Source: a virus
Direction: 5' to 3' (one strand)
Virus record (IMG/VR): IMGVR_UViG_3300000101_000006
Span: 62,001 to 126,000 of that record
Length of the DNA stretch: 64,000 bases
Shown: positions 24,014-54,721 of the stretch, piece by piece
Numbering within the stretch: the first letter of the stretch is position 1
How the letters are laid out: every line of letters begins with the position of its first letter
Notes under the pieces: generated by a model
What the model saw: the letters and a program-made list of their open reading frames with translations, nothing else
The model's database searches: none
What the model was told of the DNA's origin: nothing
Translations under genes and position numbers: made by a program

Positions 24014-24084
24014 GGGGATATAGTATAACGGGATTACATCTGCTTTGCACGCAGAAAATTGCAGTTCGATTCTGCATATCTCCA
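24014..24084 (+). tRNA. tRNA-Ala (anticodon UGC)
   Basis: The cloverleaf is complete by hand folding: acceptor 24014-24020 with 24077-24083 (seven pairs, one G-T), D arm from 24023 with a 3-bp stem, anticodon stem TCTGC/GCAGA (24039-24043, 24051-24055) with loop TTTGCAC giving anticodon TGC at 24046-24048, and T arm TGCAG/CTGCA around loop TTCGATT (24060-24076). The discriminator is A84; CCA is not encoded (CTT follows). A terminator follows directly. Phage tRNAs usually help decode codons poorly served by the host; this phage has a giant alanine-rich protein. Confidence 0.93.
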
Positions 24085-24087
24085 CTT

Positions 24088-33221: not shown

Positions 33222-34799
33222 ATGAAACTCACCAAAAATGAAATCGTTAAAGAACTTGTAAAATGCGGAAAAGACCCTCAATATTTTATTGATAACTACT
33301 GCAAGATCTCCCATCCAATGCATGGGCAAATTCCTTTTAAGACTTATGACTATCAAAAGGACATGCTCAAGAACTTTAACGATTATCGTTTTAACGTAAT
33401 ACTAAAAGCAAGACAGCTTGGGATCTCAACCATCTCGGCTGCTTATGTTGCTTGGTTCATGCTGTTTCATCGAGAAAAGAATGTTCTCGTTATCGCAACG
33501 AAACTATCCACAGCGGTAAACCTCGTAAAGAAGGTCAAAATGATCTTCAAGAACCTTCCGTCTTGGATGATGATCGCGAAAATTGCTACAGACAACAAGC
33601 AATCATTCGAGTTGACAAACGGCTCTCAAGTAAAGGCTGGAACCACATCAGGCGATGCTGGTCGTTCAGAAGCCCTGTCGCTTCTCATTATAGACGAGGC
33701 AGCGTTCGTTGATGGCCTCGAAGAGCTTTGGACGGGTCTTTACCCTACTTTGTCTACAGGGGGCCGCTGTATCGCTCTGAGCACCCCTAACGGCGTTGGA
33801 AACTGGTTTCACAAGTCCTACACTGAAGCTGAGAATGAGATGAATGATTTCTTTCCCACAAAGTTAATGTGGGATGTCCACCCAGAAAGAGACGAAGAGT
33901 GGTTCTCAAAAGAGACGCGAAATATGTCCAAGAGACAAATAGCGCAGGAGCTTGAATGTTCATTTAATGCATCAGGCGAAACAGTTATCAACCCTGAAGA
34001 TTTACAGAGGATAAGCCACTTAGTTAAAGACCCAGTCTATAGAGCTGGGTATGATAGAAATTATTGGATTTGGGAAAAACACCAAGAAGGCATTCCCTAT
34101 TTGTTAGTAGCGGACGTTGCCCGCGGCGATGGTGCAGACTTTAGTTGTTTCCACATTGTGAGAATCGACAACATGACCGTGGTCGCTGAATATCAGGGCA
34201 AGCCAGACTTGGATATGTATGCCGATATTTTATATTCTGCAGGAAATGAATACGGCAGTTGTCTATTGGTAGTTGAAAATAACGGCATCGGCATTGCTGT
34301 ATTGGAGAAGCTTAAGGACCTTGACTATAAGAAACTTTACTATTCTATCAAATCAACACATGATTATGTCGAGTCCTATCTAGCCGAAAATGACGACAGA
34401 GCCGTACTTGGCTTTACAACATCAACCAAGACAAGACCCTTAATCGTAGCTAAATTGGAAGAATACGTTAGAAACAAACTAATTAATATACACTCCAATC
34501 GTGTTTTTCACGAACTAAAAACTTTTATTTGGCACAACGGAAAGCCTCAAGCTATGCGCTCTTACAATGATGATTTGGTTATGTCCCTCGCAATTGCATG
34601 TTGGGTACGCGACACGGCCCTCTCAGAAAACGAAAGAGATATGGCTTACAAAAAGGCAATGATCGGTGGTTTGATGAAGTCTACAACGACTATGAACACT
34701 CAAATCAAGGGCCAAAAGATCTATAAAGAAACGTTCGAGCAGAAATACGAGGAGGAGATAGAAAAAGCAAAAAACTTTTTGTGGATATACAAAGGATAA
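33222..34799 (+). CDS. terL: Large terminase subunit, DNA packaging ATPase/nuclease (gp17-like)
   Basis: 525 residues. ATPase: Walker A-type KARQLGIST near 62-70 and Walker B LLIIDEAAF near 156. Nuclease: ADVARGDGADF near 296, VVENNGIG near 348, and SYNDDLVMSLAIA near 446, which supply the acidic RNase H-fold residues that cut concatemers. The protein docks on the portal and pumps DNA into proheads. Somewhat shorter than T4 gp17 (610). ATG has AAGAGG upstream. Start of the head operon: portal follows after 3 bases. The small terminase subunit is not identifiable nearby; one of the unknown genes upstream could serve. Confidence 0.97.
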   Translation: MKLTKNEIVKELVKCGKDPQYFIDNYCKISHPMHGQIPFKTYDYQKDMLKNFNDYRFNVILKARQLGISTISAAYVAWFMLFHREKNVLVIATKLSTAVNLVKKVKMIFKNLPSWMMIAKIATDNKQSFELTNGSQVKAGTTSGDAGRSEALSLLIIDEAAFVDGLEELWTGLYPTLSTGGRCIALSTPNGVGNWFHKSYTEAENEMNDFFPTKLMWDVHPERDEEWFSKETRNMSKRQIAQELECSFNASGETVINPEDLQRISHLVKDPVYRAGYDRNYWIWEKHQEGIPYLLVADVARGDGADFSCFHIVRIDNMTVVAEYQGKPDLDMYADILYSAGNEYGSCLLVVENNGIGIAVLEKLKDLDYKKLYYSIKSTHDYVESYLAENDDRAVLGFTTSTKTRPLIVAKLEEYVRNKLINIHSNRVFHELKTFIWHNGKPQAMRSYNDDLVMSLAIACWVRDTALSENERDMAYKKAMIGGLMKSTTTMNTQIKGQKIYKETFEQKYEEEIEKAKNFLWIYKG

Positions 34800-34802
34800 A
34801 AA

Positions 34803-36743
34803 ATGGCTCGCAACGAAAGAAACCCGAACAACAATCAAAACGACTTGTTCAAAGCTCTAACAAGAATGTTCTCTGGACCTATAACTCAGAGAAGAACCCA
34901 ATCAGGTAGACAATTAAGGCGGCGGCATTTAGATAATTACGCAAAAAGATTTAGAACCGCATCAGGTCAACAATTCAAAAAGACTGAATATAATCCAATG
35001 AACGTCATGGCCTTGAACATGATTACAAATAGAAATCGTACTGAGCGATATGTTGACTTTGACCAAATGGAATTTACACCAGAGATCGCATCATCTCTTG
35101 ATATCTATGCAGACGAGATGACAACCCACTCGGCTCTAACTCCAATGTTGCACATTAAGTGTCCGAATGATGAAATTAAATACATCCTTCATGCACTATA
35201 TTATAATGTAATGAACATCGAACACAACCTCTTTGGTTGGGCAAGAACCATGTGCAAGTACGGAGACATGTTTTTATACTTGGATCTAGACGAAGAGAAG
35301 GGTCTGCAAAACTGCATTGGACTTCCTCCACAAGAAGTTGAAAGACTTGAGGGTGAAGATCCAACAAACCCAAATTATGTCCAGTTCCAATGGAACTCAG
35401 CAGGTTTGACTCTAGAGAATTGGCAAATGGCCCACTTTCGAGTCCTTGGAAACGACAAGCATGCTCCATACGGAACATCAGCTTTAGAGCCCTCTAGACG
35501 CATCTGGAGACAACTTACGCTTCTCGAAGACGCAATGATGGCCTATCGCATTACTCGATCACCAGAGCGACGTGTGTTTAAGATTGATGTTGGCGGTATC
35601 GCACCACAAGATGTGGAAGGATACATGCAAAAAGTTATGACACAAATGAAGCGACACCAAGTTGTGGACCCCACCTCGGGCCGTGTAGACTTGCGTTATA
35701 ATCCACTATCAATTGAGGAAGATTACTTCATTCCCGTCAAAGGCGGACAATCATCTACAAACATTGAGAACCTACCCGGTGGTGCATTCACAGCACAAAT
35801 CGAAGACGTTAAGTATCTTCGAGACAAATTGTTCTCGGCATTGAAAGTTCCACAATCTTATCTTTCAATGGGAGATGGTGCTAGTACCGAAGACAAGACA
35901 ACACTCGCACAGAAAGACATTAGGTTCGCAAGAACAATTCAGAGACTACAGAGAGTCTTGATTACTGAACTTGAGAAGATCGGAATCATCCATCTTTATA
36001 CTCTCGGCTATCGTGGCGATGACCTGCTAGGCTTTAAACTATCTCTCAATAATCCATCAAAAATCGCAGAGATGCAAGAGCTTGAACACTGGAAGACTAA
36101 GTTTGATATCGCCGGAGCAGCAACTGAGGGATACTTTTCTCGTCGTTGGGTTTCAGAAAATCTGCTTGGATTATCACAAGATGAATATTTGCGAATGCAA
36201 AGAGAAATGTTCTCAGACAAGAAGTTCATGGCTGGTCTTGAGGCCGCCGCTTCTGCACCAGAAGGCGGTGACGCCGGTGGTGGTGACCTTGGAGGAGATC
36301 TTGGAGGAGACCTAGGTGGTGATTTAGGTGGTGATTTAGGTGGTGATGATGCCGGAGGAGATCTTGGCGGAGACACAGGTGGAGATACAGGCGGAGACAC
36401 AGGTGGAGATACAGGTGGAGATGAACCAGACCTATTGGCTGAACCTCCAGCTAAGCGTGACGACGACGCAAAACCTCGAGGCAAATACAAAAGACACAAA
36501 TCTTCTTATCGCAAAGGCGGCTTCTCAAAGCAAATGAAGAACCAAGCCTTTAGCGGCGAAGTTCGTGGATCAACCTCCAGAACAACATTTCCCGGAAAAG
36601 TCGGCTTCGGCGGATTGGATTCTCTAGCTAGAGGGATTTACGAATCAAATGAAAACGAAGAAGAGAAACTATTTAACACAAGTAGTGAGATGAAATCACT
36701 AATTGAATCATTGAACAAAAAGGAAAATACAGATGAAACATAA
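34803..36743 (+). CDS. 20: Portal protein (gp20-like) with Gly-Asp repeat insert
   Basis: 646 residues versus 524 in T4. It forms the dodecameric ring at the packaging vertex and nucleates head assembly. Recognisable gp20-type segments: VDFDQMEFTPEIASSLDIYA, FSALKVPQSYLSMGDG, LAQKDIRFARTIQRLQR, and ISNLV-like C-terminal part around MQELEHWKTKFDIAGAA. Residues about 486-541 are a low-complexity run of GGDLGGD and GGDTGGD units, followed by a basic stretch and a glycine-rich tail. Located directly after terL (3-base gap) with the next gene overlapping its end by 11 bases. Confidence 0.93.
   Translation: MARNERNPNNNQNDLFKALTRMFSGPITQRRTQSGRQLRRRHLDNYAKRFRTASGQQFKKTEYNPMNVMALNMITNRNRTERYVDFDQMEFTPEIASSLDIYADEMTTHSALTPMLHIKCPNDEIKYILHALYYNVMNIEHNLFGWARTMCKYGDMFLYLDLDEEKGLQNCIGLPPQEVERLEGEDPTNPNYVQFQWNSAGLTLENWQMAHFRVLGNDKHAPYGTSALEPSRRIWRQLTLLEDAMMAYRITRSPERRVFKIDVGGIAPQDVEGYMQKVMTQMKRHQVVDPTSGRVDLRYNPLSIEEDYFIPVKGGQSSTNIENLPGGAFTAQIEDVKYLRDKLFSALKVPQSYLSMGDGASTEDKTTLAQKDIRFARTIQRLQRVLITELEKIGIIHLYTLGYRGDDLLGFKLSLNNPSKIAEMQELEHWKTKFDIAGAATEGYFSRRWVSENLLGLSQDEYLRMQREMFSDKKFMAGLEAAASAPEGGDAGGGDLGGDLGGDLGGDLGGDLGGDDAGGDLGGDTGGDTGGDTGGDTGGDEPDLLAEPPAKRDDDAKPRGKYKRHKSSYRKGGFSKQMKNQAFSGEVRGSTSRTTFPGKVGFGGLDSLARGIYESNENEEEKLFNTSSEMKSLIESLNKKENTDET
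36262..36423 (+). repeat. Gly-Asp tandem repeats within the portal gene
   Basis: About ten imperfect 12- to 15-base units encode GGDLGGD-type repeats, first with leucine and then with threonine (GGDTGGDTGGD). Synonymous changes between units (ggaggagac, ggtggtgat) show it is old enough to diverge. Its copy number probably varies between relatives. Confidence 0.9.
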
Positions 36744-38865: not shown

Positions 38866-39195
38866 TTGGAACTTTTACATTTTATTTTAGCCGCATACGG
38901 CATGACGTTTATGATTGTCTATGGAAAAATCTTTGAAGACATCCGTCCCAAGAAAGACTACACAAAGAAATGGAACACTCTATGGAACTGTCCATTGTGC
39001 GTCGGTTTTCACGTAGGTTGGGTTTTAATGCTCCTTTCCCCATTTACGGAACTATTTAGTTTCGAGTATTCTTTCGGGAATGCATTTGTTCTTGGTTGCA
39101 TTTCAGCCGGAACATCTTATTTAATTTCGGTCTTAGTCGATGATTTTGGACTAAGGCTATCATCGAGACCAGGGGGTGATTATGTCGATGATTAG
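38866..39195 (+). CDS. Small membrane protein with CPLCVGFHVGW motif, TTG start
   Basis: TTG 38866 has AAGAGG upstream. Three hydrophobic segments: LLHFILAAYGMTFMIVYG (about 3-20), CPLCVGFHVGWVLMLLSPF (43-62) and FVLGCISAGTSYLISVL (74-90). The CxxCxGFHxGW motif recalls DUF1360-type small membrane proteins, which carry such cysteines. Its location between cargo and protease genes is unusual for a membrane protein. Function unknown. Confidence 0.6.
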   Translation: MELLHFILAAYGMTFMIVYGKIFEDIRPKKDYTKKWNTLWNCPLCVGFHVGWVLMLLSPFTELFSFEYSFGNAFVLGCISAGTSYLISVLVDDFGLRLSSRPGGDYVDD

Positions 39196-39198
39196 TAC

Positions 39199-39265
39199 GC
39201 GCTGGATGTTACAACCAGTTCGTCGCTGCTGCTCAGGTTCGTAGCGCAAGCGGGTAACGCCCGCT
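39199..39265 (+). ncRNA. Possible structured RNA between membrane protein and protease genes
   Basis: Directly after the stop codon, GCGCT (39199-39203) can pair with AGCGC (39243-39247), enclosing a CTGG/CCAG hairpin, followed by a 7-bp hairpin AGCGGGT/GCCCGCT (39249-39265) and then a terminator. The stretch is more GC-rich than its neighbours. A small RNA or a structured mRNA end; not a tRNA by my folding. Confidence 0.35.
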
Positions 39266-39268
39266 AAG

Positions 39269-39297
39269 GGTGGAGCCTAGCTCTGCCCACCTTTTTT
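39269..39297 (+). terminator. Rho-independent terminator before protease gene
   Basis: GGTGG (39269-39273) with CCACC (39287-39291), inner AGC/GCT pairing, then six T (39292-39297). Lies 13 bases before the protease start codon. Confidence 0.75.
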
Positions 39298-39310
39298 ATT
39301 GGAGAGAAGA

Positions 39311-39934
39311 ATGAGTAAACAATTATTAAGAGAGTTCCATGCACTATGCCCCGATGGTCGATGCTTGGATCTTCTAACAGAAAGAGAAAAGAAAGAAGTT
39401 GTCGAAGAAGGCGTGGTCTACTTGACTGGACGTATTCAGACAGCAGACAAAAAGAATGGTAACGGTCGCAAGTATCCACACAAAGTTCTCAAGAGAGAGA
39501 TGGATAACTACATGGCCATCGTTAAAGACAACCGAGCGTGTGGTGAATTAGATCACCCTGACGACTCCGTAATTAACCTTAAGAACGTTTCTCACATGGT
39601 CACCGACTGTTGGTGGGAAGGCAAGGACGTAATGGGCAAGATCAAGGTCCTAGACACTCCTAGTGGTAGAATCCTGAAGGATCTCATCAATGCTGGTGTG
39701 AAACTTGGGATATCATCACGAGGACTTGGATCGGTTCGAGAATCAATGGGATCAACAATTGTTGAAGAAGACTTTCAACTAATTTGTTTTGATATCGTAT
39801 CAGAACCATCAACCCCAGATGCTTATGTTTATCCGGGCGAAAGCTCTAGAAAGCCAACTAGATTCTCGACAAAGTTGCGAGAACAAAAAGAAAACAATAT
39901 TGACAATCTATTTAAAAAGATTCTTGGAGATTAA
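39311..39934 (+). CDS. 21: Prohead core protease (gp21-like)
   Basis: ATG 39311 follows TTGGAGAG. 207 residues, close to T4 gp21 (212). The herpesvirus-type serine protease signature is visible: His about 81 in GELDHPDD and Ser about 135 in GISSRGLG, with an N-terminal VYLTGRIQTADKKNGNGR strand region. The enzyme sits in the prohead core and cuts scaffold, capsid and internal proteins after [IL]xE. Within this phage the leaders MKLTKETLKRIIKEE and MNQKLIMENWRRFLKEE and the capsid segment ELLRE all fit that rule, which supports their being its substrates. Confidence 0.93.
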   Translation: MSKQLLREFHALCPDGRCLDLLTEREKKEVVEEGVVYLTGRIQTADKKNGNGRKYPHKVLKREMDNYMAIVKDNRACGELDHPDDSVINLKNVSHMVTDCWWEGKDVMGKIKVLDTPSGRILKDLINAGVKLGISSRGLGSVRESMGSTIVEEDFQLICFDIVSEPSTPDAYVYPGESSRKPTRFSTKLREQKENNIDNLFKKILGD

Positions 39935-40360
39935 ATGAACAAAGAACAATTAAGAAAAACCTTAAAGCCACTCATCAAAGAGTGTATCAAAGAGGTTATT
40001 TTTGAAGAAGGAGTTCTCTCCGGAATTATTTCAGAGGTTGTCAAGGGAACAGGCGGTCAACGTATTGTCGAAACCCAAGCTCAACCCACTTATCAAAAAC
40101 CACAAATAGATCAAGAAGCACAACAGAGAAAACTAAGAGAACAGCGACGAAGAATGCTTGACTCAATTGGGTCAGATGCATACAATGGCGTGGACTTGTT
40201 TGAAGGCACAAAGCCCTTAAGTCAACAAGCAGCCGGCAAATCTTCCGGAGGTCATGGTTCAAAAGCCCTAGAGGGTGTTGCACCAAGCGATCCCGGAGTT
40301 GATATCTCAGCTTTCGGAATGTCTTCAGCTATTTGGTCAAAATTAGCAAAGGGAAAATAA
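39935..40360 (+). CDS. Small prohead core/head protein with cleavage-like leader
   Basis: 141 residues starting immediately after the protease stop, behind TTGGAGAT. The N-terminus MNKEQLRKTLKPLIKECIKE is a basic amphipathic helix followed by VIFEEGVLSGII, again with IKE/IFE sites. A Gln/Arg-rich middle (QEAQQRKLREQRRRML) and a Ser/Gly-rich linker follow; the end SAFGMSSAIWSKLAKGK is conserved-looking. Similar small genes follow gp21 in marine T4-like phages. Probably a prohead core protein; function unproven. Confidence 0.65.
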   Translation: MNKEQLRKTLKPLIKECIKEVIFEEGVLSGIISEVVKGTGGQRIVETQAQPTYQKPQIDQEAQQRKLREQRRRMLDSIGSDAYNGVDLFEGTKPLSQQAAGKSSGGHGSKALEGVAPSDPGVDISAFGMSSAIWSKLAKGK

Positions 40361-40554
40361 TGGCTACCAATTACAAAATGAAACCTCGCAAAGGCGAGGC
40401 GATGGAAAAATTCATCAAGCGCTTCACAAAAAAGTGCAAAAAGCTTGGAATAATCCAAGAAGCTCGAGACCACAGACATTTCACTTCTGAGTCTGAAAAA
40501 AAGAGACTTGCTCGTAAAAAGTGGAGAGCGCGCATAAAGAAGAATAAGGATTAA
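40360..40554 (+). CDS. rpsU: Ribosomal protein bS21 homolog
   Basis: 64 residues, very basic. The sequence follows the bS21 pattern: an N-terminal strand, GEAMEKFIKRFTKKCKKLGI (helix with the R-F-x-x-x-C spacing), IIQEARDHRHFTSESEKKR, then a lysine/arginine-rich helix. Phage bS21 homologs are known from other aquatic phages and are thought to replace or supplement the host protein on the 30S subunit, where it acts at initiation near the anti-Shine-Dalgarno. ATG 40360 overlaps the previous TAA. Within the head cluster rather than the early block. Confidence 0.75.
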   Translation: MATNYKMKPRKGEAMEKFIKRFTKKCKKLGIIQEARDHRHFTSESEKKRLARKKWRARIKKNKD

Positions 40555-40584: not shown

Positions 40585-41010
40585 ATGAGTTCAAATTTTT
40601 ACACAGCTGGATTAAGCCACGTTGGTGCATACCAAGTAAGTGGAGTCCCATACCTTAGCGGCTCAAACCTACCAGCAAACACAACAGATTCTCTAAGGTT
40701 TCAATTTCCAACTGTAACTAAGTCAATAACGGTAAAGTCAAATCACGGTGACCCCATTCGTGTACACTTTGCTCCATTTTCTGTTGGCGTATCTCCATAT
40801 GTAAAGGGAGCAACTACAAACAACAATTTCGTTACAATAGTAGGAGATGGTTCACAAACATTTGATGTGAAGTGTAAGGAGATTTTCATCTCAAAAACAG
40901 CCGGAACGTCAGGTACCACAAATGACGACGTTCAGATATTCGCAGAACTTACGACAATCCCCAATGACAGAATGTTTAGTCTAGACAATGTAGAAGGGGT
41001 GGCGACCTAA
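40585..41010 (+). CDS. Virion surface protein, short form (141 aa)
   Basis: Strong ribosome site GAGAGGAG. N-terminus SNFYTAGLSHVGAYQVSG and C-terminus FDVKCKEIFISKTAGTSG...NDRMFSL are shared with the larger product at 41010, which has a LamG domain between them. The protein appears all-beta, without membrane segments, and probably is a small capsid-decorating or vertex/head protein. Family common in marine myophages in my recollection; function not established. Confidence 0.6.
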   Translation: MSSNFYTAGLSHVGAYQVSGVPYLSGSNLPANTTDSLRFQFPTVTKSITVKSNHGDPIRVHFAPFSVGVSPYVKGATTNNNFVTIVGDGSQTFDVKCKEIFISKTAGTSGTTNDDVQIFAELTTIPNDRMFSLDNVEGVAT

Positions 41011-44564: not shown

Positions 44565-47500
44565 ATGGCTAAATTTAATAATGGAGTTATCGTATATGAT
44601 GCACAAGTTGCTCAATTCGACATGACTCTCATGGCTGCTGAAAACATTGATTTTCCAGCTAACGTAATTAAGAATCTTAACTACTTCTCATCTGAAGTTG
44701 CTTATGAATTTGATTTGTCTTTCGACATCGCTGCAATCCGTCAAGGCGAATTGCAAAAGTTTTCACGCATGGGTCACATCCAAGCTGCTAAAGACTTTAC
44801 AGCTGCTGAAGCATTAGCTGCAGATCAAGCTCGTGTTGCTTTAAAAGGTCAAATGGAAGGATATGCTGATCAAGCTGAAGCTGACGCAATCTCTTCTGCT
44901 GGTGCTTACACTGATGGACGCGAAGTTGTTCTTCAAGGTAACATCAATGCTGAAATCGCTAGAGCTACAGCTGCTGAAGCTGCTAACGCATTGGCTCACA
45001 GCACATTTAAAACTGCTCAAGAAACTTTCAATGGCGACATTGGAATGGAAATCGCTGCTAACAAAACCGCTTCTGAAGCTGCTGATCAAGTATTGACTGA
45101 TGGTTTGGCTCAAGAAGTTTCTGATCGTATCGGTGCAGTTAATTTGGTTACCGTTTCTTTGGCGACTGAATCTTCTACATCTCGTGCTGCAGAAGCTGCA
45201 AACGCTGCTGCAATCACTGCTGAGCAAGTACGCGCAGAAGCTGCAGAACTTGGTCTTCAAGGAAACATCAATGAAGTTACTGTTTCTTTAGCAACTGAAG
45301 CTTCTACTGCTCGTGCTGCTGAAGCTGCAAATGCTGCAGCAATCACTGCAGAAGCAGCTCGTGCTTCTGGTGAAGAAACATTGATTCGTGGCGAATTCGC
45401 TGCTGCTGATGCTGCAAAGCTTCAAGAAGCAAAAGGTTACACTGATCAAGAAGTTCTTGCTGAAAAAACTCGTGCTGAAGCTGCTGAAGCTGGTCTTCAA
45501 TCTTCTATCGATGCAGAAGCTGCAACAGCTCGTGCTGCTGAAGGAGTAAACGCTGCTGCGATTACTGCTGAAAATGTTCGTGCTTTGGCTGCTGAAACTC
45601 AGTTGGCAAACGCTTTGGCTCAAGAAGAGACAGACCGTTTGGCTGGAGAAGCTGTATTGGAAGGTAAGATCGATACTGAAAAAGGTCGTATTGACGCTAT
45701 CTTGTTGGCTTCTGATGCTGATAAAGATTCATTTGCTGAAATCGTAACTTTGGTTAACTCTATCGATGCTGAAAATGATCAAGCTTTTGCTGGACACGTT
45801 TCTGCTTATAACACCAAGATGGGTGAATTGGATGCAGCTAATGCTGCTGAAGAAGCTGCTCGTATTGCTGGTGATGCTGCTGTTGCTCAAGACCTTGCTG
45901 ACTACGAAGCCTCTAACGACGCTGCGTTGGCTGCTGAAGTTTCTAGAGCAAGTGTTGCTGAAGCTGCATTGCAAGCTGGTTTGGATGCTGAAATTGCTTC
46001 TACCAATGCTGATTTTGTTTCTGCTGCTACTGATCGTGGTGCTATCCGTTCTGAGTTTGCTGCTGCAGACTCTGCAATGGAAACTGCTTTCACTGCTGAA
46101 ATTGACGCTCTTAAAGTTCAAGATGGAACTCACACCGCTGCTATCTCTGCAAACGCTTCTGCTGTATTGACCGAGAAAGCTCGTGCTGAAGCTGCTGAAG
46201 GTGTTTTGACTGCTGCTGTTTCTGCTGAAGAAACTCGTGCACTTGGTCAAGAAGCTGCGATTCGTTCTGAATTTGCTGCTGCTGATGTTGCTCTTAAAGG
46301 TCAGATGGAAATCTACACCGATGGTGCTGTTGACGGAGAAAAAGTTCGCGCTGAAGCTGCTGAGCTTGTATTGACTAATGCTGTTTCTACTGAGCAAGCT
46401 GCTCGTCTCGCTGGCGATGGCGCAATTCGTGGGACAACACCAGAAGGTGCTGTATTCGGTGGATCTTTGTTTGGACTTGACCAAGCAATGGCTACAAAAG
46501 AAGCAGCTTCTAATGCTGCAGATGCTGCATTGCAAGCTGGTTTGGATGCTGAAGAAGCTGCACGTATTGCTGGTGATGCTCAAGGTTTAGTTGACGCTAA
46601 AGCTTATACTGATGCTGAAGTTTCTTCTGAAGCTGCTCTTCGTGTTGCTGCTGATGCAGGTCTCCAAGGCCAAATCAACACAGTTGACGGAAAAGTTGAC
46701 GGTGAAAAAGTTCGTGCAGAAGCTGCTGAATTGGCTTTGTCTAACTCAATCTCTGCTGAACAACAACGTGCAACTGCTGCTGAAGGCGCAATTGCTGCTG
46801 ATTTAGCTCAAGAGCTTTTAGATCGTGCTGCTGCTGAATCAGCTGCTGCATCTTTCAACTTGGCTGCTCGTAATGCAATCCAAGCTGATGTTGACGCTAA
46901 CGAAGCTTCTGCTTCTGGTTCTTTCGCTGATGCTTTGGCTGCTCGTGGTGTAATCGCTGGAAACTTGGCTCAAGAGCTTCTTGACCGTGCTGCTGGTGAT
47001 GTTCAAGGTTTGGCTGACGCTAAAGCTTACACTGATGCTGAAATTGCTACAATGCAATCTTCTTTGGATGCTGAAATTGCTGCGACTAATGCTGACTTCG
47101 CTGCTGCTGAACAAGCTCGTATCGGTCTTGCTGGTGAAATCGGTGTTGAGAAGGGACGTATTGATGCTATCTTGGCTGGTGCTGATGCCGACAAAGATTC
47201 ATTTGCTGAAATCGTAGCTTTGGTTAACTCTGTTGACACAGAAAACGACACTGCATTTGCTGGTCATGTTTCTGCTTACAATACTAAGATGGGACTTTTG
47301 GACGGTGTAGATGCTGCTGCAACTACTGATCGTGCTGCGATCCGTTCTGAATTGGCTTCTGAAAAAGCTGCTTTACAAGCTGAATTTGCTGCTGCTGATG
47401 CAGTTGTAACTGCTGCTTACGAAGCTGCTGATCTTGCTATGAAGACTGGTCTTGAAAGCGATATCGATGATGAAATCGCTGCTCGTGTTGCTGGCGATTT

Positions 47501-47951
47501 GGCTTTGGATGCTGCATACAAAGCTGCTGATGCTGCTGAAGAGTTTGCTCGTATCACTGCTGACAATAACCTTACAGCTTCTTTGAATGCTGAAGTTGTT
47601 CGCGCGACTACTGCTGAGGGTCAATTGCAAAGCAAGATTACTGATATGCACAATGGTGAAACTACTGTTAACCACATTACTAATGTGGTTGCTTCTGCTT
47701 CTATCATGTTGCCTAGCGGTTTCGCACATCAAATCGTTGTTAACTCTGGTGCTTCTGCAATGGCAACATTGCCGGTAATGGGTCCAAACTTCAAAATGAC
47801 TTTGAGCCTTGCTGCTTCAAGTTCTGAAGCTATGGAATTCCACGCTCCTGCAGGAATGACTATTGATGGAGAAGCTGACGGTAAGATCAAACTTTACTCA
47901 GGCGCTTCTGTTTCTTTCGTTGAACATGCAGGCGTATACTACATGGTATAA
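44565..47951 (+). CDS. Giant alanine-rich coiled-coil virion protein (1128 aa)
   Basis: An N-terminal domain of 75 residues (FNNGVIVYDAQVAQFDMTLM) leads into almost 950 residues of Ala/Glu-rich heptads (ARAAEAANAAAITAE, repeated many times). The segment GRIDAIL.ADADKDSFAEIV and FAGHVSAYNTKMG occurs twice, near residues 371 and 861. The last 100 residues (NVVASASIMLPSGFAHQIV to FVEHAGVYYMV) form a beta cap. This is the plan of a long trimeric fibre or whisker. Codons are strongly biased (Ala mostly GCT, Arg CGT, Ser TCT), a sign of very high expression as for the major capsid gene. Strong ribosome site; monocistronic, with its own terminator. Confidence 0.75.
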   Translation: MAKFNNGVIVYDAQVAQFDMTLMAAENIDFPANVIKNLNYFSSEVAYEFDLSFDIAAIRQGELQKFSRMGHIQAAKDFTAAEALAADQARVALKGQMEGYADQAEADAISSAGAYTDGREVVLQGNINAEIARATAAEAANALAHSTFKTAQETFNGDIGMEIAANKTASEAADQVLTDGLAQEVSDRIGAVNLVTVSLATESSTSRAAEAANAAAITAEQVRAEAAELGLQGNINEVTVSLATEASTARAAEAANAAAITAEAARASGEETLIRGEFAAADAAKLQEAKGYTDQEVLAEKTRAEAAEAGLQSSIDAEAATARAAEGVNAAAITAENVRALAAETQLANALAQEETDRLAGEAVLEGKIDTEKGRIDAILLASDADKDSFAEIVTLVNSIDAENDQAFAGHVSAYNTKMGELDAANAAEEAARIAGDAAVAQDLADYEASNDAALAAEVSRASVAEAALQAGLDAEIASTNADFVSAATDRGAIRSEFAAADSAMETAFTAEIDALKVQDGTHTAAISANASAVLTEKARAEAAEGVLTAAVSAEETRALGQEAAIRSEFAAADVALKGQMEIYTDGAVDGEKVRAEAAELVLTNAVSTEQAARLAGDGAIRGTTPEGAVFGGSLFGLDQAMATKEAASNAADAALQAGLDAEEAARIAGDAQGLVDAKAYTDAEVSSEAALRVAADAGLQGQINTVDGKVDGEKVRAEAAELALSNSISAEQQRATAAEGAIAADLAQELLDRAAAESAAASFNLAARNAIQADVDANEASASGSFADALAARGVIAGNLAQELLDRAAGDVQGLADAKAYTDAEIATMQSSLDAEIAATNADFAAAEQARIGLAGEIGVEKGRIDAILAGADADKDSFAEIVALVNSVDTENDTAFAGHVSAYNTKMGLLDGVDAAATTDRAAIRSELASEKAALQAEFAAADAVVTAAYEAADLAMKTGLESDIDDEIAARVAGDLALDAAYKAADAAEEFARITADNNLTASLNAEVVRATTAEGQLQSKITDMHNGETTVNHITNVVASASIMLPSGFAHQIVVNSGASAMATLPVMGPNFKMTLSLAASSSEAMEFHAPAGMTIDGEADGKIKLYSGASVSFVEHAGVYYMV

Positions 47952-52930: not shown

Positions 52931-54721
52931 ATGTCTATTATCGAAACTCTAACAGAAGGTATCGTCAACCGCGATATGCAAAAAGAAGGTGCTGCTCTGT
53001 TAAACAAATGGTCACAAACTGGTCTTTTAGAAGGCTTGTCTGATGATAACCAAAAAGCTTCAATGGCTCGTCTATTGGAGAATCAAGCTCGCGAATTATT
53101 GCGTGAGTCTAACACAATGGCTGGTGGATCTGTCGAAGGTTTTGCTGCTGTTGCATTCCCAATCGTTCGTCGTGTATTCGCTGGATTGATTGCGAACGAC
53201 TTGGTTTCTGTACAACCAATGTCTCTTCCAAGTGGATTGATTTTCTTCTTGGACTTCACATTCAACAGCTCTCGTCTTGGAAATACAGCGACCGAATCAA
53301 TCTACGGTACTGACCGTGTTGGTTCTGAAGTAACTGGTGGTGTTAACTTGGTTGACGCACGAGGAATTTCTGAAGGCTCTGGTCCTCTTCGTGCTGGTGC
53401 AACTGGTTATGCTTACGCATCTCCAACTGGATCTAACGCAGAAATCATCGTTGCTTCTATGAAAGTACACGCTGCTTTCAACTTGGACGGCACCGTCCCA
53501 GATCGTGCAGCAAAAGCTATTAGATTTGATGCTGATCTTCTTAACATCACAGATGGTACTGGTATCATTGTTGTTGATGTGAAAAACAGTGTAATCAAAG
53601 ACTCAACGACATCCAACTCACCAGCAGACTTTGATAATCTTTCTGCTTTTGTATGGGCTATTACACAAGCAACAGTTGAAACTCAAGCAAACACTGCATT
53701 GACTCAACTTCGTCGTTTGACTTCAAAAGTTAAAGCCAACGCCACCGCATTGGGCGAAACTGCTACTAGATTCGTATTCACTCAAACCGCAGGCGCCAGC
53801 TTGGATGCTGAAGTTACCTCTGATACAGCACCGGCAGCAGTTTCCGCAGCAGGGGCCCTTAAGTTCCCAATGATTGATAATATTGCTGCATCGTCAACCC
53901 CTGGTGGGATCATTGGACAACAATTGTGGGGACTTGAAAACAATGTTGATATCCCTGAGATCGACATCAAGGTAGACTCAATCGCTATTACAGCACAAAC
54001 CAAGAAGTTGAAAGCAAAGTGGACTCCAGAATTGGGTCAAGACTTGAACGCTTACCACAACTTGGATGCTGAAGTAGAATTGACTTCTATCCTTTCTGAG
54101 CAAATCGCTCTTGAATTGGATCGTGAAATCTTGGCTGACCTTGTAAACGGCGCAACTGCTGCGACTTACTACTGGTCTCGTTCACCTGGTTTGTTTGTAA
54201 ACCGTGAAACTGGTGCTGAGCTTGGCGCAACTTCTGCTGCTCCTGACTTCACTGGTACTGTTTCTGAATGGTATGAAACTTTGATCGAAACTATCAACGA
54301 CGTTTCTGCACAAATCCATCGTAAGACTTTGCGTGGTGGTGCTAACTTCTGTGTCGTAGGACCTGAAGTTGCGAACGTTTTGGAATTCACTGCTGGTTTC
54401 CGTGCGAACGTTACTGCTGACGCTGACAAAGGCGACATCGGTGCTGTTAAGGTTGGTTCTTTGAACCGTAAGTTCGACGTTATCGTTGATCCTTACTTCC
54501 CACGTAACGCAATCTTGGTTGGTCGTAAAGGTTCTTCTTTCTTGGAAAGTGGATATGTTTACGCTCCATATGTACCATTGCAAACAACTCCTACCATCTT
54601 TGGACCTGAAGACTTCGTTCCTCGCAAAGGTGTTATGACTCGTTACGGTAAGAAAATGGTTCGTCCTGACATGTACGGTCTTGTTATCGTTCGTGGATTA
54701 GCAGGCGAGTCTGGATCCTAA
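52931..54721 (+). CDS. 23: Major capsid protein (gp23-like)
   Basis: 596 residues versus 521 in T4. The N-terminus is the typical gp23 start, with ARLLENQARELLRESNT (about 46-62) followed by EGFAAVAFPIVRRVFAGLI and SLPSGLIFFLDF. LRE at 57-59 fits the gp21 cleavage rule and is the probable maturation site. The C-terminus shows the usual GRKGSSFLESGYVYAPYVPL. Codons are strongly biased to GCT, CGT and GGT, in keeping with the most abundant virion protein. AAGGAG ribosome site and a strong terminator behind. Confidence 0.96.
   Translation: MSIIETLTEGIVNRDMQKEGAALLNKWSQTGLLEGLSDDNQKASMARLLENQARELLRESNTMAGGSVEGFAAVAFPIVRRVFAGLIANDLVSVQPMSLPSGLIFFLDFTFNSSRLGNTATESIYGTDRVGSEVTGGVNLVDARGISEGSGPLRAGATGYAYASPTGSNAEIIVASMKVHAAFNLDGTVPDRAAKAIRFDADLLNITDGTGIIVVDVKNSVIKDSTTSNSPADFDNLSAFVWAITQATVETQANTALTQLRRLTSKVKANATALGETATRFVFTQTAGASLDAEVTSDTAPAAVSAAGALKFPMIDNIAASSTPGGIIGQQLWGLENNVDIPEIDIKVDSIAITAQTKKLKAKWTPELGQDLNAYHNLDAEVELTSILSEQIALELDREILADLVNGATAATYYWSRSPGLFVNRETGAELGATSAAPDFTGTVSEWYETLIETINDVSAQIHRKTLRGGANFCVVGPEVANVLEFTAGFRANVTADADKGDIGAVKVGSLNRKFDVIVDPYFPRNAILVGRKGSSFLESGYVYAPYVPLQTTPTIFGPEDFVPRKGVMTRYGKKMVRPDMYGLVIVRGLAGESGS

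Follow-up and report, generated by a model that had tools for sequence, protein, structure and literature searches.

Why should a phage keep the gene of a ribosomal protein among the genes that build its head, and what might the product do there? The locus that raises this question lies in a window of 64,000 nucleotides, i.e. the whole stretch of DNA analyzed here, from a 127,431-base IMG/VR record of a T4-like myovirus, a record with one S21 match. Phage-encoded bS21, its incorporation into ribosomes, its location near protease and capsid genes and its late expression have already been described (Mizuno et al. 2019, PMC6375957; Chen et al. 2022, PMC9723584). An earlier note on this DNA had stated that bS21 homologs are known in some aquatic phages; both studies describe such cases, the former also reporting an aquatic bias (PMC6375957).

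The bS21 gene (40360..40554, plus strand) runs from an ATG at 40360 to a stop codon at 40552-40554, and its product, MATNYKMKPRKGEAMEKFIKRFTKKCKKLGIIQEARDHRHFTSESEKKRLARKKWRARIKKNKD, fits the family in being small and basic, with 64 amino acids compared to the approximately 55-75 expected. The earlier note had read this ORF as bS21 and proposed a profile search; the reading held with its coordinates exact, as significant matches were obtained in Pfam, NCBIfam and PHROGs as well as with a family profile against the PDB. The Pfam domain Ribosomal_S21 (PF01165) matched with 41.5 bits (cut-off 27) in a nearly full-length alignment of residues 9-59 to profile positions 4-54 out of 55. The NCBIfam equivalog TIGR00030 (S21p) was passed by a narrow margin, with 29.6 bits where the cut-off is 28.95, and PHROG 21469, "ribosomal protein S21", matched with E=3e-4. 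A profile built from the window protein together with 27 relatives matched 28 distinct PDB sequences at E<=0.01, all named S21 chains. The AlphaFold model has three helices, which is what one expects of bS21 (residues 15-29, 31-40 and 44-63; mean pLDDT 85). With this model of a 64-residue helical protein, the best Foldseek matches had E-values of 3.8 and above, none of them significant, and VIA gave two chains with Z above 2 (3.9 and 3.1), from plant mitochondrial and chloroplast ribosomes. Direct tblastn against 50,697 phage records returned no match, the query being too short and divergent. Judged by these matches, the ORF is a genuine bS21. A chance origin is excluded by 28 distinct 64-codon homologues with a median dN/dS of 0.07 (synonymous sites near saturation). 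The gene is under purifying selection and, with the prohead protease at 0.06, is constrained to about the same degree as a core head gene; the 141-aa gene downstream reaches 0.20.

The neighborhood is that of head assembly, with TerL, portal, protease, both 141-aa genes and the major capsid gene on the plus strand. The block opens with the large terminase subunit (TerL, 33222..34799; PHROG 2, E=5e-52) and the portal protein (34803..36743; PHROG 213, E=1e-71), continues with proteins of 271, 192, 244 and 109 aa, and reaches bS21 by way of the T4 gp21-like prohead protease (Peptidase_S77, 39299..39934 with an ATG at 39311; PF03420, 115 bits; PHROG 207, E=1e-59) and a 141-aa protein (39935..40360). 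The latter, without any significant family match in Pfam or PHROGs, is syntenic in close and distant clades. Downstream of bS21 follow a second, syntenic and faster evolving 141-aa protein (40585..41010), proteins of 348 (LamG-like), 773 and 1128 aa, and later, approximately 12 kb away, the major capsid protein (52931..54721; PHROG 138, E=6e-70). The head-cluster location claimed by the earlier note is real, and conserved in relatives, but bS21 does not follow the protease immediately; the latter lies two genes upstream with the 141-aa gene intervening, and with TerL and portal further upstream. Some features of the surroundings may be recorded on their own account. The C-terminal part of the portal gene (36200-36450) encodes a Gly-Gly-Asp repeat (GGDLGGDLGGD...GGDTGGDTGGD), and the 1128-aa protein (44565-47951) is repetitive, rich in alanine and glutamate, and without Pfam or PHROG match. 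A single tRNA-Ala (TGC) gene is situated inside a called ORF at 24014-24085; an Rfam search found nothing but a tRNA.

The position of bS21 is nearly fixed among relatives. A protein search of IMG/VR with bS21 yielded 57 loci, namely 37 at 77-98% identity, one short fragment and 19 at 36-53% local identity, and all but one of these (L047) have the gene order around bS21 in common. Seeding the search with the protease instead gave 80 loci, where bS21 was found downstream at the same place in 75 out of 75 informative cases; in the remaining five the contig ends at most 430 bases from the protease. In a more distant clade bS21 follows the protease in 62 of 69 informative contigs, and in the clade of Microcystis phage Mel-JY01 in nine of ten; the order is kept also in a clade whose bS21 is just 31-38% identical. 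These sets are redundant, and the numbers count contigs rather than independent events. The gene is on the same strand as its neighbors in the window, and likewise in every one of the 145 contigs with bS21 from the three sets. Eight informative contigs of these sets do not have bS21, some of them carrying a large gene instead, and in one (L273) it was lost together with its upstream gene. Furthermore, Flavobacterium phage immuto (MW353176), whose TerL (47%), portal (38%) and protease (48%) are related to those of the window and ordered alike, has no bS21 near the protease, and none of the 59 informative contigs around it has one. From these absences, bS21 is not essential everywhere.

How its translation starts is part of the same arrangement. 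The ATG of bS21 shares bases with the stop codon of the preceding 141-aa gene (TAATG), and a Shine-Dalgarno-like (SD) AAAGGGA is found in the last codons of that gene (40345..40360, plus strand). Among its last conserved codons, of which AAG GGA is invariant, the top codon has a mean share of 0.93, compared to 0.67 for the remainder of the gene, and this synonymous conservation suggests that the initiation signal of bS21 is itself under selection. The overlap may be a simple means of tying bS21 output to head-gene output. In the window as a whole, the SD core motif precedes 79% of the 53 predicted genes, against 14% at random positions. The corresponding values are 72%, 64% and 52% in the bS21-bearing contig sets (background 13-17%), and 5% in the immuto set (background 21%), whose clade thus is without SD usage. 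Among the related lineages sampled, the bS21-bearing ones use SD sites and the one without bS21 does not.

Promoter searches gave no further signal: T4-type late promoters (TATAAATA) were not enriched, with four found against 2.2 expected, and sigma-70-like sites in the region stayed at chance level (24 against 25.7). Upstream of the protease, the stop codon of the 109-aa gene is overlapped by the ATG of a tiny ORF (MISTRWMLQPVRRCCSGS, 39188-39244), which had no match in phage records. A peptide of this kind follows the 109-aa gene in all 96 related contigs where that gene and the protease are adjacent and in 35 of the 36 where they are separated. Its 59 distinct versions carry a coding signature (pN/pS 0.19, with some residues fixed by the search pattern itself), seen also in the variable third codon position and in swaps between TCA and AGC for Ser and TTA and CTT for Leu. 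Just 3' of it lies a hairpin (GCGGGTAACGCCCGC, 39250-39264) that 54 of the 59 distinct relatives have, and whose third stem position varies in a paired manner (G-C in 46, C-G in six, A-T in two). In contigs with a more distant protease, the hairpin remains beside the tiny ORF. We considered the conserved element upstream of the protease as a regulator of bS21 and rejected the idea, since it follows the 109-aa gene and not the protease when the two separate. Right before the ribosome-binding site of the protease there is also a strong terminator-like stem with a T run (39268-39288) and paired stem changes in relatives; if it works, expression of the protease and bS21 would depend on read-through. 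The stretch 39244-39299 is furthermore an insertion hot spot, as many relatives have the tiny ORF separated from the protease by at least several hundred bases.

Taking the observed identity, purifying selection, conserved same-strand position, upstream overlap and strong SD sites as a starting point, we consider it likely that the window encodes a functional phage bS21 within the head-assembly block, which replaces or supplements the host protein on the 30S subunit and favors initiation on phage mRNA. The gene would be co-transcribed with the head genes and expressed late, as is the case in lake phages, where bS21 is transcribed along with the structural genes (PMC9723584). The product would then enter the host ribosome, most likely taking the place of host bS21 or adding to it on 30S subunits, at a time that probably coincides with the making of structural proteins late in infection. 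Situated beside the anti-SD tail, it could give preference to phage mRNA, a role in tuning initiation that has been put forward as a hypothesis in the literature. Weighing against this reading are the lack of enrichment of T4-type late promoters and the related contigs that do without bS21.

The best surviving alternative, though an unlikely one, is that phage bS21 shuts off host translation by leaving ribosomes poor at host mRNA, from which phage mRNA escapes through strong SD sites or leftover ribosomes. It draws on the bS21 of the Pelagibacter phage HTVC008M (AGE60443; Mizuno et al. 2019, PMC6375957), from a marine T4-like myovirus, which was shown to enter E. coli 70S ribosomes and alter their activity, leaving them nearly inactive in vitro at approximately 5% (PMC6375957). 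A general inhibitory effect of phage bS21 is possible on this basis, and the strong SD sites of the window genes would suit such an escape. However, that assay used ribosomes of a non-native host, and a conserved site among the virion genes agrees more with a protein that supports late synthesis than with an early shut-off. The HTVC008M protein is 32% identical to that of the window, and its gene lies elsewhere, approximately 15 kb past the capsid gene, where it is flanked by cobS and a heat shock gene region.

Less probable still is a role in the virion or its assembly, in which the protein, being small and basic, would bind DNA or the prohead core outside the ribosome and keep only the sequence family of bS21. 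The location of the gene, flanked in nearly all relatives by protease and structural genes, would agree with this. So would the loss of "YEKPS", a motif frequent among cellular S21 proteins, in the window's clade (here HFTSESE). Yet the distant clade retains YEKPS, the family cut-offs are still passed, the equivalog model included though narrowly, and a known phage bS21 does enter ribosomes (PMC6375957). That bS21 is a mere passenger, a recently acquired host gene without a lasting role, is barely credible: repeated pick-up of host bS21 by phages is known (PMC6375957), but selection on the gene is strong, the same locus is kept over deep divergence, and two scans of cellular genomes confirmed no near relative of it.

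Bacteroidia ribosomes do not read SD sequences, as bS21, bS18 and bS6 hide the anti-SD, with a contribution from Tyr54 of bS21 (PMC9976891; PMC9723584). Aligned to F. johnsoniae bS21 (sequence taken from 7jil), none of 28 phage bS21 sequences carries an aromatic at the Tyr54 position, where the helix alignment is uncertain; the equivalent is R, N or V in all those aligned and, with the same uncertainty, A57 in the window protein if no gap is allowed. An invariant Trp55 is close to this position in the window's clade. One could imagine that a bS21 without the blocking aromatic reprograms ribosomes toward SD-rich phage mRNA, and if this were true and the hosts SD-blind, the virus would switch the mode of initiation, but we regard it as improbable. 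The plainer reading, that hosts simply differ in SD use, is more likely, and strong SD sites on the phage genes argue for an SD-using host and against an SD-blind one. Together with the missing aromatic, a host that uses SD sequences is the simplest reading of these data. The two scans of cellular genomes did not name the host, nor did any gene among 39 further proteins from the record that were compared with Pfam.

Besides HTVC008M and immuto, the closest known counterparts are the lake phages and Mel-JY01. The Bacteroidetes phages that Chen et al. 2022 described from lakes (PMC9723584) are likewise aquatic myoviruses, with bS21 a few genes from TerL, portal, prohead protease and major capsid protein, and bS21 is close to the prohead protease in 310 of 900 published phages (PMC9723584). 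In the lake phages, however, bS21 is on the opposite strand to the structural genes and has an aromatic at the Tyr54 position, whereas in the window it is on the same strand and has none there, given an uncertain helix alignment; the strong SD usage of the window genes is a further difference. In the cultured Mel-JY01 (PP395634), RpsU is annotated at the same place and on the same strand as in the window, and the order is the same: TerL, portal, small genes, prohead protease, one small gene, bS21, further genes and capsid. The two bS21 proteins are just 28% identical, and the capsid gene is much nearer in Mel-JY01.

What is new here is thus a bS21 gene in a same-strand, overlapping and nearly fixed position over a wide SD-using lineage, without the Tyr54 feature. 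This suggests that head-cluster bS21 is not confined to Bacteroidetes phages, and experiments could start from the cultured relative Mel-JY01. In these viruses bS21 belongs to the head block in a nearly fixed, syntenic way and is no stray auxiliary gene, which agrees with the published proposal of a phage bS21 that serves the late synthesis of virion proteins.
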